Assembly: GCA_017883385.1 (NCBI GenBank)
Contig: JADGNQ010000004.1
Location: 1 to 64,000 of the forward strand
Reading direction: 5' to 3'
DNA from: Candidatus Sulfotelmatobacter sp.
Lineage (GTDB): Bacteria > Acidobacteriota > Terriglobia > Terriglobales > Acidobacteriaceae
Length of the DNA: 64,000 nt
Shown: piece by piece, positions 26,790-63,069 of the stretch
Position numbering within the stretch: position 1 is the first letter of the stretch
Layout of the letters: the number at the start of each line of letters is the position of its first letter
Notes under the pieces: generated by a model
What the model was told of the DNA's origin: nothing
The model's input: only the letters and a program-made list of their open reading frames with translations
Databases searched by the model: none
Translations under genes and position numbers: made by a program

Positions 26790-26910
26790 GTCGTAGCTTG
26801 TCTTTCGCCCCTCCGGGGCTTGCCCATTTCCCACTATCACCCACGGCTTGCGCCCCTTCGACAAGCTCAGGGCAGGCTGTGGGCTGCATTCTATCGCCGC
26901 TTCGCGGCTT
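26790..26910 (+). repeat. Composite hairpin repeat with nested 26-bp unit
   Basis: A CGCCCC-TCC-GGGGC hairpin is followed by CCCACGGCTTGCG, the 26-bp unit (26853-26878), GTGGGCT and CGCCGC-TTC-GCGG. The outer stem (CCCACGGC/GTGGG) differs from the CCCCGGAC stem of the copies at 6768 and 25647 yet is still paired. Confidence 0.65.
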
Positions 26911-42028: not shown

Positions 42029-42119
42029 AACCAGTGCCGTCCCTGCGGGACTCGTTCGCCTCTCCCGACGGCACCCCGGACTTACGTCCGGGGCTAATGA
42101 ATGCCGCCGCTTCGCGGCT
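42029..42119 (+). repeat. Composite hairpin repeat, uninterrupted CCCCGGACTTAC form
   Basis: A CGTCCC-TGC-GGGACTCG hairpin comes first, then CCCCGGAC-TTAC-GTCCGGGG with CTAATGAAT, and GCCGC-CGCTTC-GCGGC at the end. This is the intact version of the elements that carry a 26-bp insert at 6768, 25647 and 26839. Confidence 0.7.
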
Positions 42120-56279: not shown

Positions 56280-57473
56280 CTAGCGCTCGACCGCCATGGC
56301 TACGGCGTTGCCGCCACCGAGACAGAGGGCGGCGATGCCACGCTTTGCGTCGCGGCGAATCATTTCGTAGATAAGCGTGACCAGGACGCGCGCGCCGCTG
56401 GCGCCGATGGGGTGGCCGATGGCTACCGCGCCGCCGTTCACGTTGACCTTGTCGGGGTTCAGGCCCAACTCGCGCATCACGCCTAGCGCCTGCACGGAGA
56501 AGGCCTCGTTGAGTTCGTAGAGATCAACGTCCTCGTTCTTCCAGCCGGTCTTCTCCCAGATCTTGCGGACGGCGTCGACGGGGGCCATCATCACCCATTT
56601 CGGTTCAACTCCGCTGGTGGCTTGGGCTACGATGCGGACCATGGGTTTCGCGCCGAGGTCCTTCGCCCGCTGCGCGCTGGTGACAACCAAGGCAGCGGCG
56701 CCATCGTTGACGCCGGGGGCGTTGCCGGCGGTGACTGTGCCGTCTTTCTTGAAGGCCGGCTTCAGGGAACGAAGGACTTCGATGGTTGTGTCTTCGCGCG
56801 GGCCTTCGTCTTTTTCGAATATGGTGGGCGGGTCGCTTTTCTTCTTCGCAGGAATCTCGACTGGAACGATTTGCGACTTGAAGCGGCACTCCTTGATCGC
56901 CGCCAGCGCCTTGCGGTGGGAGTGGAGGGCGAATTCGTCCTGCTCTTCACGAGAGATGCCGTACTTCTCGGCGACGTTCTCGCCGGTGATGCCCATGTGA
57001 TAGTTGTTGTAAATGTCCCATAGCCCATCCTGAACCATGGAGTCGACGATCTGCGCGTTGCCCAGGCGGTATCCCTTGCGCGCCTGCGGCAGCAGATAAG
57101 GAGCGTTGGTCATGGATTCCATTCCACCAGCGACGACGATGGAACTGTTTCCGGTCTGCACCGCTTGCGCTGCGAGAGCGACAGATTTCAATCCTGAGCC
57201 GCAAACCTTGTTGATAGTCATGGCACCTGTCGCGGGAGACAGTCCACCGAAAATCGCGGCCTGCCGCGCGGGATTCTGACCGAGTCCGGCGGAGATGACG
57301 TTGCCCATGATGCATTCGTCAATTTCCGCAACCTCGACGCCCGCGCGCTTCACCGCCTCGCGCACGGCGATGGCGCCGAGTTGCGGAGCGCTAAAATCGG
57401 AGAGGCTGCCTTGAAATTTTCCGACTGCAGTGCGGCAGCCGGAGATGATGACAACATCGTCAAAAGAGGCCAT
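56280..57473 (-). CDS. Acetyl-CoA acetyltransferase (thiolase)
   Basis: 397 residues, the usual thiolase length. The nucleophile is C91 in [11 protein letters not shown], with [10 protein letters not shown] (His) and [10 protein letters not shown] (second Cys) near the C-terminus, so the full active site is present. The start [20 protein letters not shown] is typical. It joins two acetyl-CoA to acetoacetyl-CoA or cleaves 3-ketoacyl-CoA; the short-chain biosynthetic type (AtoB/PhaA-like) is favoured by overall resemblance. It is a single gene and may be metabolically linked to the CoA transferase at 40456. Confidence 0.95.
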
Positions 57474-57753
57474 GAATCAAGCTCCCGCGAAGATTTCGCG
57501 AGTTTCATTATAGATGCGCGGGCGCGGGAATGCTTGACGCCGAACCACGCATGCGATGCGCGCCGGCGTTTGAGAGAGAGGTGGAAATGAATTTGACGGG
57601 TGGCGCGTGAGATGGTGTCTTCCTGCGATTTCAGCTCGGCCGTGGATCTCGAAACCGCCCGGCGCTCGACAATTATGTTGACTTTTGCGACGAAAGTTCA
57701 CTCGTCGTGACTTTCGTACATCGACTTCACATGCTTGTATCATCATTTTTCTC

Positions 57754-57782
57754 TTGACTTCATTTTTCATTAACTCTATGTT
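57754..57782 (+). promoter_or_regulatory. Promoter of a micro-transcription unit
   Basis: TTGACT and TATGTT are separated by 17 bases in a locally AT-rich stretch. Transcription would begin near 57789. An inverted repeat, ACGAAAGT...ACTTTCGT, lies about 60 bases upstream (about 57693-57719). Confidence 0.5.
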
Positions 57783-57848
57783 TCAAATAGTTGCAACAAA
57801 ACAACGTTGCGAATTTTCCATGAAAAATGGAAGGGAGAATAGAAACCA

Positions 57849-57890
57849 ATGGCAACCAAGAAAAAGGCAAAGAAGAAAAAGAAGCATTAA
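57849..57890 (+). CDS. 13-residue lysine-rich micropeptide (or part of a small RNA)
   Basis: ATG 57849 to TAA 57890 encodes MATKKKAKKKKKH. GGGAG lies about 12 bases upstream. The frame is framed by its own promoter (57754) and a strong terminator (57914), with nothing else between them, so a transcript of about 155 nt has either this peptide or an RNA as its product. The leader can fold (GCAAC...GTTGC; TTCCAT...ATGGAA). Nine of the 13 residues are Lys, or ten basic residues counting the final His, so a peptide would bind nucleic acid or membrane non-specifically. I know no characterised homologue. Confidence 0.4.
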   Translation: MATKKKAKKKKKH

Positions 57891-57913
57891 GAAAGATCTG
57901 TACGAGTCAAAAG

Positions 57914-57944
57914 GGGGACGCCAAAAGCGTCCCCTAACTTTTTT
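57914..57944 (+). terminator. Rho-independent terminator after the micro-ORF
   Basis: GGGGACGC-CAAAA-GCGTCCCC is a perfect eight-pair stem, followed by TAAC and six T residues. Confidence 0.85.
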
Positions 57945-58051
57945 GGGGCGCGCTGGGCACGGTGGAAACTCTTTTGGAGCCTTCGGCTGTTGGGTACAGG
58001 TAGGGATTCTTCGCTTCGCTCAGAATGACAAAACTTAAAGACTAGTCCGGG

Positions 58052-61030
58052 TTAGTTTGACGGCTTTGATGTGCTCGCCGGTTTTTGAGGAATACGTTTT
58101 TCTTTCTCGGGACACAAGCTGCGATAGGCGCAGAAGCTGCAGTGCATTCCGAGTTTCGCTTCGAACTCGCCGGCGGCAATGCCCTGCGCCGCCGCTTCCA
58201 CACGCTGGCGGGCAGCCAGCAGTTGCGACTCTGTTCGCACGGTGCTGACGGGGATATTCTCTTCCAGGTTATAAAAAATCAGCGCGCCAACGTTGTATCC
58301 CCACTTTTCGCAAGCGGCGATCGCGTACAGGGACAACTGCAAGCTCTCATTGGCGTCTTCCTGATCGCGCGCCTTGCCGGTCTTGTAGTCGACGATAGCC
58401 ACGGTGCCATCGGGGCGGCTGTCGATGCGGTCAATGCGGCCGGCGACGGTAGTCGCGCCCACATGAATATCAAAGGACTGCTCCGTATGAAGGACCTGCG
58501 CCGGAGGAAGTGATCGCGCCGCGGCGAGGAAGTCGGTTAGCTGGGCAATGCCCTGCTTCTCGTACAGCTCATGCTGGTATTTCTCCTGAATCTTGGCATC
58601 GGCCAGATCCTGGCGGAACAGGGCAATGAGTTCTTCCTCGGTCCTGGGGCGCCCCAGTTGCACGGAATCGAAATAGGTTTTGAGGACGCGGTGAATTGCG
58701 GCGCCGTATTGCATTGCCGCAGCAGGTCTCTCGGCGAGGCGCCAGTCCCGGTCGAGCTTGAAGCGCAATCCGCACCGCTCGTAGTTATCGACGGCGGAGG
58801 CGCTCAGGCGGGTGTGCAATCCGTCGAGCACCGGCAACTCGAGCCAGGCGGTCGTTTGCGACTCTGTTGGGTATGCCGGAGAGGTCGCGGCAAAGATGTC
58901 GAGCTTCGCCTGGGCGCCGCTGGCGGGAATCGCAGTCAGCCAGCGAGAGAGGCTGGGGTTCTCGATCAGCTCCCGCATGTAGCCGTCGGGATTCTTGTTG
59001 GCCTTGCCCTTTCCCTGCCGGGAATAAATGCGCAGCGAGTCGCGGGCTCGGGTCATGGCGACGTAGAAGAGGCGGCGTTCTTCCTGGCCGTGGAGTGTCT
59101 TGTCGTCGGCCTCGGTCAGGGAATCCGTGTCGCGCAGTTCCCGGGGAAAAGCGACCAGAGTCTCTTTGAACGAACTGGGGAACGAGTTCGAATTGGCGCG
59201 GAGAATGAAGACGTGGGGAAACTCGAGTCCCTTGGCCCCGTGCACGGTCATCAGGCGAACGGCGTTCTCGGTCTCGCTGGCCTGCAAGGGAATCACACCT
59301 CCGGCTTCGCGGAAGTACGTGAGATAGTCGACCAGTTCTTCCAATTCCGTCGTCTTGTTCACCTTCTTCGTTTCCCAGACAGCTACGAACTGCAGGGCCG
59401 CCTGAAGAATGGGCGAAGTGGCATCGAGAGCGAACTGCTTGACGATCACGTCGAGCGCGGCACGAGCCTTCGCTTTGCTGCGATAGATTTCTTCACGAGC
59501 GCGCTGAACGGCCGACAGGACGTCGGCACCGCCGTCGACCCGATCGAGCGCGGAGGAGAGCGGGACGACATGCGCTTCCCGGTTGTCCCGGGCAATGGCC
59601 CGCATGACCTGTCGAAGTTGCTCGGGATTCACATGGAATCGAGGCAGGGCGGCTACGCGAAACAGGCTGACGTCGTCGCCGGCGGAAACGACCGCATTCA
59701 GGCAGGCGAAGAGGTCGCGAGCCTCGGGGGTGTCGGAGATGTCCATGCTCTCAATGACGAAAGGGATCGCGGCTTCGGCCAGTTCGTGCACGACCTCGTC
59801 ACGCTGGTAGTGAGAGCGGTAAAGGACGCCGAAATCGGACCATTTGCACTTCGACTTCCTTTGCGCGTCGCGGATGAAGGCAACCACATCGGGCCCCTCT
59901 GCGTCTTTGCTGGTGAGCACGACCACCGACACGGGAGGACTGGGAAGCTGCGTGCCGGCCTTCGCAGCTTCCTCTTCCCGGGCGGACTGGAGCGGCACGC
60001 GGTGGTACGCGAGGGTACCGTCGGCGTGCTTGGCGAACACGGGCGGATTCTTGTCAATCAAAGCGAAGGCGCTGCGCAGGATGGGCGTGGTCGAGCGGCG
60101 GTTCGTCTCGAGGACCACGCGTTTGGGATTGGGAAAGTGACGATGGAAGAGCTCGAAGGCTGCGCTGGATGCGCCGCGAAAGCGATAGATGGCCTGGTCG
60201 GGATCGCCAACGGCGAAGATGTTGCCCTCTGCTCCGGCGAGGCGGGCGAGAATCTGAATCTGGGCGAAGTTGGCGTCCTGAAATTCGTCGGCCAGGATGA
60301 AGCGGGCACGGCCACGAGCCTCGGCCAGAACATTTTCGTCGCTGTGCAGCAAGGCATGCGCGCGGGTGATCATGTGGCTGAAGGTGCCAAGATTCTCTTC
60401 CTGGAGCCAGCGCTCCATGGTATTGAACACGCGCGCGATCTCGCGGCAGCGACCGAGAACTTCGGCATCGTCGAGGACGTTTTTCGACTTCATGACCCGC
60501 GGGATGGGGACCTCTTTGCGCTCCAGGCGTTCGACATACTGCGTATATTTTTCCGGAGTGATCAGTTCGTCGTGGCAGCGGCTCACAAAGTCCAGCAGGT
60601 CGTTCAGAAACTGACCGATATTCGCGGCGCGGATATAGTGCTCGAGATGAAGCTCGCGGATACGGCGGCGCAGGTAGATCCAGAGATCCTTGTCGTCGAG
60701 AACGCCGAAATCGTTGTGTACGTGCTTCAGTAGACCGAGGCAGTAGTCGTGGAATGTGGCGGCGTTCACCTCTTCGCCGCCCAGCAGCTTGCGCAACCGG
60801 GCGCGCATTTCCGTGGCGGCGTTGACGGTATAGGTGAGGGCCAGGATCTCGTGGGGTTGCGCGTGGCCTTCGCGGACCAGGCGCTCGATCCGGTACGTAA
60901 GGACCGACGTCTTGCCCGTGCCGGCTCCCGCTACCACCAGCATGGGTCCATGCACATGCTCGATGGCTTCGCGCTGGCGATCGTCTGGAGTAAATGGAGC
61001 GGGACGGGAGTTCGACTTCGGAGACGGCAT
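58052..61030 (-). CDS. UvrD-family helicase fused to PD-(D/E)XK nuclease with Fe-S-type cysteines
   Basis: 992 residues. Superfamily 1A helicase motifs: Walker A GAGTGKT (K40), FILADEFQDANFAQ (Walker B/II), VGDPDQAIYRFRGA (III), LETNRRS (IV), MTVHGAKGLEFPHV (V) and RRLFYVAMTRARD (VI). The C-terminal part has the RecB-type nuclease core GRIDRIDSRPDG...AIVDYKTGK. One upstream cysteine (YERCGLRF) plus three near the end (HCSFCAYRSLC) match the 4Fe-4S clasp of AddB/AdnA-like nucleases. It processes double-strand DNA ends for recombination. It lies downstream of the heat-shock cluster on the same strand. Confidence 0.92.
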   Translation of the reverse strand: MPSPKSNSRPAPFTPDDRQREAIEHVHGPMLVVAGAGTGKTSVLTYRIERLVREGHAQPHEILALTYTVNAATEMRARLRKLLGGEEVNAATFHDYCLGLLKHVHNDFGVLDDKDLWIYLRRRIRELHLEHYIRAANIGQFLNDLLDFVSRCHDELITPEKYTQYVERLERKEVPIPRVMKSKNVLDDAEVLGRCREIARVFNTMERWLQEENLGTFSHMITRAHALLHSDENVLAEARGRARFILADEFQDANFAQIQILARLAGAEGNIFAVGDPDQAIYRFRGASSAAFELFHRHFPNPKRVVLETNRRSTTPILRSAFALIDKNPPVFAKHADGTLAYHRVPLQSAREEEAAKAGTQLPSPPVSVVVLTSKDAEGPDVVAFIRDAQRKSKCKWSDFGVLYRSHYQRDEVVHELAEAAIPFVIESMDISDTPEARDLFACLNAVVSAGDDVSLFRVAALPRFHVNPEQLRQVMRAIARDNREAHVVPLSSALDRVDGGADVLSAVQRAREEIYRSKAKARAALDVIVKQFALDATSPILQAALQFVAVWETKKVNKTTELEELVDYLTYFREAGGVIPLQASETENAVRLMTVHGAKGLEFPHVFILRANSNSFPSSFKETLVAFPRELRDTDSLTEADDKTLHGQEERRLFYVAMTRARDSLRIYSRQGKGKANKNPDGYMRELIENPSLSRWLTAIPASGAQAKLDIFAATSPAYPTESQTTAWLELPVLDGLHTRLSASAVDNYERCGLRFKLDRDWRLAERPAAAMQYGAAIHRVLKTYFDSVQLGRPRTEEELIALFRQDLADAKIQEKYQHELYEKQGIAQLTDFLAAARSLPPAQVLHTEQSFDIHVGATTVAGRIDRIDSRPDGTVAIVDYKTGKARDQEDANESLQLSLYAIAACEKWGYNVGALIFYNLEENIPVSTVRTESQLLAARQRVEAAAQGIAAGEFEAKLGMHCSFCAYRSLCPEKEKRIPQKPASTSKPSN

Positions 61031-61109: not shown

Positions 61110-61823
61110 TCAGCTTAGTTCGGAGATCACTACTGCCGTGGCGGCGATGGCCGCGGTTTCAGCGCGGAGAATCGTGGATCCCAGAGAGGCGGAGATCCAT
61201 CCGGCTTTGTCGAAGAGTTGCAATTCGTCTTCGGTCCAGCCGCCTTCGGGGCCGATTGCCAGAATAATCTTGCCGTCTGCAGGATTTGAGGCGAGAACGT
61301 CGCGGAGCAAAGTCTTCTGCTCTGACTCCGCGAGTACGATCCGCAGGGCGCCGGTCAGGCTCGCTGCGTCTTGCAGCTTGATCGGAAGGGTGATCTCAGG
61401 AGGCGCGGCGCGGCGGGATTGCTCCGCAGCTTGCAGCGCAATCCTGCGCCAGCGCTCGGCGCGTTTTGCAGCGGCCGAGGCCAGGTGTGCGTCGGTGCGG
61501 CGCGCGATTACGGGGACGATCCGTGAGACACCGAGTTCCGTGCATTTCTCGATCGCCCACTCCATACGGTCGAACTTAAAGACGGCGAGCAGGAGTGTGA
61601 TGTCGGCGGTGGGCGCGGCGGGGACTTCTTCTCCCAGTTCGAATTCGACCCGGCCGGGTGAGATGGACACGATGCGTCCGCGGCGGACTACGGTACCGGT
61701 AGCGATATCGAATTCCTGTCCTACCTGTGCGCGCAGGACGCGGACCAAGTGATCGGCGTGATCGCCGGTGAGGGCGGCGTGATGGCCAGAGGCTTCATCG
61801 GCGATCCATCGGCGGCGGGTCAT
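61110..61823 (-). CDS. rsmE: 16S rRNA m3U1498 methyltransferase RsmE
   Basis: About 237 residues from ATG 61823; the open frame upstream to 61931 only translates a REP-like repeat. The N-terminal PUA-like part is HHAALTGDHADHLVRVLRAQ. The SPOUT/trefoil-knot part is EKCTELGVSRIVPVIARRTD, then ILAIGPEGGWTEDELQLFDK and ASLGSTILRAETAAIAA, which are RsmE signatures for S-adenosylmethionine binding. It methylates N3 of U1498 in 16S rRNA. Its place directly after dnaJ is the common order in many bacteria. Confidence 0.94.
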   Translation of the reverse strand: MTRRRWIADEASGHHAALTGDHADHLVRVLRAQVGQEFDIATGTVVRRGRIVSISPGRVEFELGEEVPAAPTADITLLLAVFKFDRMEWAIEKCTELGVSRIVPVIARRTDAHLASAAAKRAERWRRIALQAAEQSRRAAPPEITLPIKLQDAASLTGALRIVLAESEQKTLLRDVLASNPADGKIILAIGPEGGWTEDELQLFDKAGWISASLGSTILRAETAAIAATAVVISELS

Positions 61824-61837
61824 GGGGGAGAGTATGC

Positions 61838-61904
61838 CCTCAGCGGCTGAAGCCGCCAGCGAATCTAGACGCGTGCGGCACGACTCGAAGTCGTGCCCTT
61901 CCCG
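61838..61904 (+). repeat. REP-like element, diverged copy
   Basis: GCGGCT-GA-AGCCGC, a spacer, then GGCACGACT-CGA-AGTCGTGCC and CTTCCCG. Both stems are intact but differ in sequence from the copies at 4509 and 38224. It occupies the rsmE-dnaJ gap. Confidence 0.65.
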
Positions 61905-61932
61905 ATTGCGTGACGCAAAGCGGGGCTGCAAA

Positions 61933-63069
61933 CTATCCGAACATGTCCTTCATCTTACCGAGCAGCGATCGCACCAGGGGCTGGTTGTCGACCTTGGAGA
62001 GAGCATCGAGCTCTTGCAGCAGCTCTTTCTGGCGCTTGTTCAGTTTGCTGGGGACCTGCACTCGGACTTCAACGTACAGGTCGCCCTTGCCATGTCCGTT
62101 CAGCACGGGCACGCCTTTGTTGCGGATGCGGAACGTGGTACCGGGCTGCGTGCCATCGGGAATCTTCAGGGTGTGCTCGCCTTCCATGGTCGGCACGCGG
62201 ATCTCGGCGCCCATGGCCGCCTGGGGCACGGAGATCGGCACTACACAGTGCAAGTCGTTACCTTCGCGGGCGAAGAACGGATGTTCCTTCACGTGCAGCA
62301 CAACATATAAATCTCCCGCCGGGCCGCCGAACTGGCCGACTTCGCCTGCGCCCGAGAATCGAATTCTGGTTCCATCCTCCACTCCTGCGGGAACGTTGGC
62401 GTCGACGGTGCGCTGGCGCAGTATGCGGCCTTCGCCTTTGCACTTCGCACACGGATCGGTGATGACACTGCCCGAGCCCTGGCAGGCGGGACAAGTGCGC
62501 GCGATGCTGAAGAATCCCTGCTGGTAGCGGACTTGTCCGCGGCCAGCGCAGGAGCGGCATGTGGTCGGGCCTTTTCCTGGTGCGGCGCCGGAACCGCGGC
62601 ACTCTTCGCAAGCCTCGTGGCGTCGAACCGTTACGCGAGTTTCTTTGCCGAAGAAAGCTTCTTCGAATTCAAGCGTCAGGTCTTCGCGAAGATCGGCGCC
62701 ACGCTGAACCCGGCTGCGACGCCGGCCTCCGCCGCTGCCGCCGAACACGTCACCAAAACCGAAGAACTCACCGAAGATGTCGCTGAAGTCCTGGAACACG
62801 GTGGGATCGAAGCCTGCCGCCTGCCCGGAACTGCCGCCGAGTCCGGCGTGGCCGTAGCGGTCGTACACGGCGCGCTTGTCTGTGTCCGCGAGTACGGCGT
62901 ACGCTTCGCTGACCTCTTTGAATTTGTCTTCCGCGTCGGGATTGTTGGGATTGCGGTCAGGGTGGAACTGCAGCGCGAGCTTGCGATAGGCGCTCTTGAG
63001 CTCCTGTTCCGTCACCGTGCGGGCCACGCCCAGCACCTCGTAGTAATCGCGTTTTGCGTTCGTGGTCAG
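61933..63069 (-). CDS. dnaJ: Chaperone DnaJ
   Basis: About 378 residues if started at CTG 63069; the first ATG/GTG/TTG in frame (GTG 63036) would cut off the start of the J domain (TTNAKRDYYEVLGVA). AAAGG lies seven bases before the CTG. The J domain has QFHPDRNPNN. A Gly/Phe-rich linker follows, then four zinc repeats (CEECRGSG, CRSCAGRG, CPACQGSG, CAKCKGEG) and the two substrate-binding beta domains. It stimulates DnaK ATPase and presents unfolded proteins. It is located between grpE and rsmE. Confidence 0.95.
   Translation of the reverse strand: MTTNAKRDYYEVLGVARTVTEQELKSAYRKLALQFHPDRNPNNPDAEDKFKEVSEAYAVLADTDKRAVYDRYGHAGLGGSSGQAAGFDPTVFQDFSDIFGEFFGFGDVFGGSGGGRRRSRVQRGADLREDLTLEFEEAFFGKETRVTVRRHEACEECRGSGAAPGKGPTTCRSCAGRGQVRYQQGFFSIARTCPACQGSGSVITDPCAKCKGEGRILRQRTVDANVPAGVEDGTRIRFSGAGEVGQFGGPAGDLYVVLHVKEHPFFAREGNDLHCVVPISVPQAAMGAEIRVPTMEGEHTLKIPDGTQPGTTFRIRNKGVPVLNGHGKGDLYVEVRVQVPSKLNKRQKELLQELDALSKVDNQPLVRSLLGKMKDMFG

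Follow-up and report, generated by a model that had tools for sequence, protein, structure and literature searches.

Dual-function RNAs, which serve both as mRNA and as functional RNA, can occur in versions that lack the encoded peptide. For SgrS/SgrT, the closest described counterpart of the locus analyzed here, a passage of one report places the sgrT ORF in only a subset of species (PMC8672173), and part of another describes Yersinia SgrS homologues without sgrT (PMC4021124). For Acidobacteria, a section of a 2022 review counts 4 distinct annotated sRNAs (PMC9029176). The RNA motifs Acido-1 (RF01686) and Acido-Lenti-1 (RF01687), described from Acidobacteria according to part of a further paper (PMC2864571), do not overlap our locus at the gathering score. 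Among the papers listed by our searches of the open-access literature for this gene or for small RNAs and small proteins of Acidobacteria, none describes it.

Here we describe a short unit in a 64,000-nucleotide stretch of DNA (the window). An independent unit with its own promoter and intrinsic terminator is conserved over the family at the sequence level, and we consider it probable that it is a free-standing gene for an RNA of ~155 nt that is both an mRNA, for a lysine-rich micropeptide, and a functional RNA.

Results

Layout of the unit and its neighborhood

A sequence-only reading of this DNA had proposed a promoter, a foldable leader, the frame MATKKKAKKKKKH and a perfect terminator, together forming a complete stand-alone unit flanked by thiolase and helicase genes. 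Scanning, folding and translation located the first three as claimed. The terminator is present too, with 3 nt between stem and U-tract, which makes "perfect" slightly too strong. The features are as follows.

56280–57473, − strand: thiolase, neighbor (Pfam PF00108/PF02803; neighborhood conserved)
57708–57722, + strand: conserved upstream box, possible activator site; TGACTTTGGTAC in most same-genus copies, TGACTTTCGTAC in the window (alignment)
57754–57782, + strand: sigma-70-type promoter, TTGACT-N17-TATGTT (scan; −10 at 17-nt spacing recognizable in 145/150 family units)
57791–57812, + strand: leader hairpin HP1, near the predicted 5′ end (folds; covariation in 60 non-redundant leaders)
57814–57834, + strand: leader hairpin HP2, its 3′ arm overlapping the start of the ribosome-binding site (folds)
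57831–57842, + strand: AAGGGAGAATAG, Shine-Dalgarno sequence plus conserved extension (alignments)
57849–57890, + strand: micro-ORF MATKKKAKKKKKH, stop TAA (translation; synonymous-only variation in 35 same-genus copies)
57913–57944, + strand: intrinsic terminator, stem-loop GGGGGACGCCAAAAGCGTCCCCT followed by a U-tract (scan; stem conserved)
58052–61030, − strand: UvrD-type helicase with PD-(D/E)XK nuclease domain, neighbor (Pfam PF00580/PF13361/PF12705)
61110–61931, − strand: RsmE-type RNA methyltransferase, neighbor (Pfam PF04452/PF20260; adjoins the unit in many genera)

TTGACT (57754–57759) and TATGTT (57777–57782), separated by a 17-nt spacer, form the sole sigma-70-like match within 57000–58700. 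They agree with the consensus at 9 of 12 positions; since 0.9 such matches are expected per shuffle, the scan alone is worth little. The leader (~60 nt) begins near 57788 and ends before the ATG (57849), and the ORF occupies the middle of the predicted transcript of ~155 nt. The terminator stem (57913–57935) has 9 pairs, 7 of them G-C, and the U-tract (57939–57944) follows after the 3-nt gap.

Beyond the helicase gene in the window lie the gene at 61110–61931, which we take to be rsmE from its Pfam family, and then dnaJ. The proposed thiolase and helicase flanks hold within the genus; in many other genera the neighbor is rsmE instead. rsmE and dnaJ (61110–63036 in the window, and in relatives) share a strand in some lineages and face opposite ways elsewhere, marking a local inversion next to the unit. 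A 30-nt match (90%) to positions 58001–58030, with TTCTTCGCTTCGCTCAGAATGACA, lies past the unit in L035; this stretch is perhaps a dispersed repeat. Elsewhere in the window, Acido-Lenti-1 RNA (RF01687) matches at 42074–42119 and at 26840–26909, the second just above the gathering score.

At the gathering score, Rfam 15 gave no family overlapping the unit in the window or in 8 loci (5 of them without the ORF), and a permissive Rfam scan of 401 bases returned only matches far below gathering (E 0.95–8.5). No match over the curated cut-off was obtained for the peptide in Pfam (23-aa form) or NCBIfam (23- and 30-aa forms), in which peptides this short are hardly able to score.

Conservation in the genus and spread through the family

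A 201-bp query matched once per genome in 36 of the 37 genomes of the genus, including the window's own. The other copies matched at 82–92% identity over ~190 bases (over 139 only in G025), and the single unmatched genome, G022, is 76% complete. Among the 34 copies with full flanks, mean pairwise identity was 0.92 for the promoter, 0.85 for the leader, 0.87 for the ribosome-binding site and linker, 0.94 for the ORF, 0.65 for the 3′ UTR, and 0.86 for the terminator, compared with flanking values of 0.20 (far upstream), 0.37 (upstream) and 0.07 (immediately downstream); a value of 0.47 further on corresponds to the end of the helicase gene. It is this conservation, rather than the single sequence, that excludes a chance origin. 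The shared promoter, frame and terminator in these close relatives bear out the proposal of a complete stand-alone unit. In the same 34 copies, a box ~30 nt before the −35 element has an identity of 0.85, versus 0.37 upstream and 0.56 downstream of it; this box (57708–57722) is a candidate activator site, a possible function suggested by its conservation.

To define the wider spread, we derived a covariance model, extending from the promoter through codon 4, from 60 non-redundant units. It matched 229 of 248 sampled family genomes at E 0.01 or better, in 60 of 62 genera, with two matches in three genomes; the units lie mostly at one syntenic place. Under laxer filters, a second search of nine of the 19 unmatched genomes brought matches in G320, G403, G527 and G529 (E 0.018–0.031) with the same anatomy as the unit, and the remaining five (G270, G442, G308, G421 and G514) gave no match to it even with these filters. 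In a sample of the phylum, the model matched 39 of 297 genomes, 36 inside the family; the 3 matches outside are weak (E 2.5e-4 to 4e-3). Most sampled members of this large family, which consists of soil bacteria, keep the gene, mostly as a single copy at one place, and at 12–32 codons it would be too short for ordinary protein annotation.

A short pattern running from the ribosome-binding site through the start codon matched 52 of 399 class genomes and none in a reversed-sequence control, some of the matches being starts of longer proteins. Once translated, L088, L089, L092, L101, L105, L118 and L122 from this class search were not units. L122 comes from a genome (G364) that also has a normal unit, and is an additional Lys/Ala/Val repeat frame, 48 aa long, behind AAGGGAGAATAACC. 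Outside the window's family, L052/L093 (family f3) and L090 and L091 (family f6) are Lys/Ala-rich micro-ORFs of 14–29 aa with AAGGGAGAAT leaders, possible distant relatives. In a named collection the pattern found at least 118 stretches, and 7 of the 80 matches listed were named outside Acidobacteria and set aside: L152, L161, L167, L180 and L216 proved to be the beginnings of longer proteins, L213 contains an unrelated frame of 28 aa, and the frame of L174 runs off its locus.

CTTGAC stood at the proper distance in 150 of 159 short units; 6 of the others lie at contig ends, and L090, L091 and L213 lack it. A recognizable −10 element followed at exactly 17 nt in 145 of these 150, which were chosen for CTTGAC, so the −35 element is partly selected for. 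The window's own −10, TATGTT, is rare (3 of 150), TATACA being found in 130.

The frame varies as a coding sequence

The sequence-only reading had offered a choice between a peptide, which should show synonymous variation of the lysine codons, and a small RNA, whose stems should covary. The lysine codons do vary synonymously. The 35 same-genus frames that share one length have 8 variable sites out of 42, each a third position and each synonymous (ACC/ACG, AAG/AAA, GCA/GCG/GCT, CAT/CAC and TAA/TAG; Fisher p 2.5e-5), and the 36th same-genus copy, L039, has one lysine codon fewer, in frame. Comparison of 282 close pairs from 159 short frames, which include the outsiders L090, L091 and L213, revealed 76, 90 and 930 changes at codon positions 1, 2 and 3, respectively; the pairs are not independent, so their p-value is untrustworthy. 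Across relatives the peptide has 12–32 residues, and the drift in length stays in frame. The 159 frames encode 52% lysine and 28% alanine, with 2 acidic residues, both from L213, and nearly all end in His (73) or Lys (85). Together, these patterns indicate that purifying selection maintains the frame for a peptide made almost purely of Lys/Ala(/Thr/Ser/Pro). Selection here clearly acts on a product with little to it beyond charge and length.

The same frame occurs in a second gene, B, in 31 of 37 same-genus genomes, with a different promoter (TTGACA), leader (GTTCACGGAGGAAC) and terminator (GCCTCTCAGGAG..CACCTCTTGAGAGGC) (L044–L051, L058–L087 and L353–L355); B had no match in the window's own genome. 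Its peptide, MATKKKAKKKK(K)H, is 12 aa in 29 and 13 aa in 5 of the 34 rows read from 30 genomes, a few of these rows being one place twice. Since two different RNAs encode the same peptide, the peptide would be the selected product in same-genus genomes. A B-like leader pattern was found in 5 of 399 class genomes; 3 are B genes and 2 are in family f6.

These data bear on the alternative that the unit is a regulatory RNA only, its lysine-rich frame being incidental to an AAR-rich, ARN-repeat Hfq-binding sequence. ARN repeats bind the distal face of Hfq. Among 31 genomes of the genus and order, 30 have an Hfq match over the cut-off; its presence in the genus permits an Hfq-dependent role, and units without the ORF do exist. 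However, the confinement of variation in the genus to synonymous third positions, the in-frame length changes, and the encoding of the same peptide by a different RNA, gene B, make this explanation barely credible.

Hairpins of the leader and terminator

In 60 leaders, 84.0% of the HP1 cells are paired, versus 77.7% in shuffled alignments, and covariation is 0.353 versus 0.237, a value as high in 0 of 500 shuffles; with the partner slid, covariation was at most 0.107. In most leaders the innermost pair (columns 53–68) does not form, and of the five measures one, further pair types, was matched or exceeded in 55 of 500 shuffles. For HP2, a hairpin ending at most 6 nt from the ribosome-binding GG was present in 52 of the 60 leaders (mean score 8.3 versus 4.5 in shuffles); 8, including L137, L184 and L116, lack a hairpin in this position. 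HP2 stems vary (for example CCAT/ATGG, CCAC/GTGG, CGATG/CATCG and CGAC/GTCG); the 19 that were read include many trimmed versions of a few cores, such as the first three of these. The invariance of AAGGGAGAATAG is partly owed to the search pattern.

A hairpin follows the stop codon in 147 of 150 units, with the stem GGGGACGC in 116 of the 147 and at least 4 T in the 9 bases after it in 127. In the window's genome the unit is the single place with the terminator palindrome. The palindrome is present in 47 of 60 family genomes, elsewhere than in the unit in some (such as G156 and G441), in a search that counts each place on both strands.

In coding lineages, translation and stability alone could suffice to explain why the leader is conserved. 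A narrower reading is that the unit is only a micro-mRNA, whose hairpins and terminator serve the stability and translation of the peptide; its frame would have decayed in genera g22, g24 and g30 and in one g20 genome, and the leftover transcript would have been co-opted for an unrelated purpose. The strong coding signature, the occurrence of the same frame in gene B, and the contact of HP2 with the ribosome-binding site all fit this reading, which we weigh below against the units without the frame.

Units without the frame

In 35 genomes read (16 from g24, 15 from g22, 3 from g30, and G188 from g20), the promoter, HP1 and GGGAG are kept and the lysine-rich frame is missing; 97 genomes read carry the frame, these counts are no census, because a word that includes the start codon served to retrieve many of the coding loci. 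By genus, 30 of the 34 read have only units with the frame, 3 have only units without it, and g20 has both (13 with, 1 without). All 35 ORF-less units contain GGGAG, part of them the AAGGGAGAATAG extension, and 34 the terminator, the exception, L326, being cut by a contig end before the terminator. A frame of at least 8 codons ending before the terminator end was found only in L295 (GTG start, 11 aa, 18% K+R). In 7 of the 16 g24 units, a basic ATG frame, M(R/Q)(S/R)GGK(G/D)R..., runs through the terminator stem; we judged it to be chance, not a gene.

We also searched 26 ORF-less genomes for a relocated peptide. The strict pattern MA-x-KKA-x-KK, which recovered the unit from three of the 4 coding controls (missing G083) and is blind to the MATKKKAKKK form, matched in 8 of these genomes, each time at the start of a longer protein (71–509 aa). 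In relatives, proteins of 71–121 aa begin with MATKKAAKK or MATKKATKK. L356–L360, L367 and L368 share a MATKKA start, and 6 of the 7, L368 having been read in part, continue into a common stretch with QAIAI(G/A)L(S/N)EAR; they are histone-like tails that begin as the micropeptide does.

Conservation of the ORF-less units differs between genera. Among 14 units of g22, the body (TGGGAGCGCAGGCAAACGCA and following) is 0.85–0.99 identical, compared with 0.09–0.53 upstream, 0.12–0.40 downstream and 0.65–0.78 for the start of rsmE; HP1 and HP2 are 0.55–0.62 identical. In the alignment of these 14, pairing survives changes on both sides at 8 of the 30 predicted pairs, 1 in HP1 and 7 in the terminator. 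In g24, identity is 0.34–0.87 for the unit, 0.59–0.67 for the body, 0.24–0.58 upstream and 0.11–0.37 downstream; conservation of the body barely exceeds that of the stretch upstream (up to 0.54–0.58). The bodies of g22, g24 and g30 differ from one another.

Stems therefore covary as the small-RNA half of the original choice had anticipated, in HP1 of the 60 leaders and in pairs of the ORF-less g22 units. Because lysine codons vary synonymously and stems covary, peptide and RNA are not exclusive: each half of the choice gained support, and the choice itself did not stand, given genomes with and without the frame.

Relationship of the coding and ORF-less units

We compared 21 ORF-less loci. In 20 of them, rsmE follows the unit in the same orientation; at L297 (G188), only the thiolase gene upstream was matched. 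Coding relatives have the same neighbors, and the shared position indicates that coding and ORF-less units are orthologues. The position of rsmE raises the alternative that the unit is a leader or attenuator of this next gene, with the terminator as a switch. Co-directional rsmE lies downstream in many lineages, and the 20 ORF-less loci leave room for a cis role there. However, the unit persists where the first matched downstream neighbor is the convergent helicase gene (75 of 180 loci compared, the window included), and where rsmE itself is convergent (g32, g41 and two relatives), which renders an rsmE attenuator quite improbable. For the window we rejected an amino-acid attenuator with a leader peptide, as the gene that follows the unit there lies on the opposite strand; in lineages where rsmE is adjacent, such a role may exist.

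We placed the units on an rsmE tree of 112 rows (one short protein, quick method, midpoint root; G188 absent). The 33 ORF-less rows need 2 changes, versus 28.8 in shuffles; the starred branches of the tree force only 1, so a single change may suffice. The 30 rows of g22 and g24 form one clade (support 99), and g30 forms another (95). As the 30 rows make up one supported clade, the RNA would have long persisted without the frame. Since the frame is found on both sides of the midpoint root, its loss in the ORF-less lineages is the simpler reading. G188 is probably a further change, because the 13 other g20 genomes have the frame.

The distribution of the frame about the root also agrees with the micro-mRNA explanation. 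Set against it, promoter, HP1, GGGAG and terminator persist frame-free across the 30 rows of one clade, g22 shows compensatory changes, and the g22 body exceeds the start of the neighboring gene in conservation. We consider a micro-mRNA alone unlikely, although it is the strongest of the rivals. The conservation in lineages without the frame points to an RNA kept under selection there, and an RNA kept without its peptide frame probably has a job itself. As the ORF-less bodies differ, coding and ORF-less RNAs may differ in role, and this function may have been gained only after frame loss.

Discussion

We favor a dual-function transcript, probably one that works like SgrS/SgrT. In this model, the RNA would be transcribed from the predicted promoter, its 5′ end protected by HP1, and translated from the AAGGGAG site. 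The peptide, presumably unfolded, would bind nucleic acid (DNA, rRNA or RNAs) as a small polycation. The RNA may also be a regulator in trans, acting by way of its U-poor and mostly unpaired GGGAG/GGCAA body and possibly on Hfq, a step for which we have less support. The existence of coding and ORF-less versions in related genera provides a natural experiment on a dual-function RNA with and without its peptide, a question that is commonly addressed in single strains.

A bolder version is that the unit is a family-core riboregulator with its own portable RNA chaperone: the lysine-rich peptide would bind RNA and help this and other RNAs anneal or pack, and fixation of a GGCAA-rich element in the body would have made the peptide dispensable, so that it would have been lost with the RNA retained. 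We regard this version as doubtful. If true, one RNA would be both a regulator and the encoder of its own RNA-annealing helper, across the whole family.

AlgP and Hc1 are histone H1-like proteins rich in lysine and alanine. The peptide resembles such proteins in composition; unlike them, it is free-standing, has 12–32 aa and carries no further domain.

Like VcdRP of Vibrio cholerae, as portrayed in part of PMC8672173, the unit would be a dual RNA with a small ORF (29 aa in VcdRP), a conserved RNA element and a terminator. It differs in that, by the same passage, the ORF and pairing element of VcdRP are conserved in all species tested, whereas our ORF is missing in some lineages.

The likeness to SgrS/SgrT, at the level of sequence, is closer: a short, independent predicted transcript, a small ORF, a Rho-independent terminator, and retention of the RNA in ORF-less species. 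The two share no locus. Membership of the SgrS family was rejected, since the neighbors are thiolase, helicase, rsmE and dnaJ rather than sgrR, and the unit had no Rfam match. The products also differ, SgrT being a protein of ~40 aa and likely a PtsG inhibitor, and our peptide a polycation of 12–32 residues. What would be new relative to known dual-function RNAs is this polycationic payload, absent in several genera that keep the RNA.
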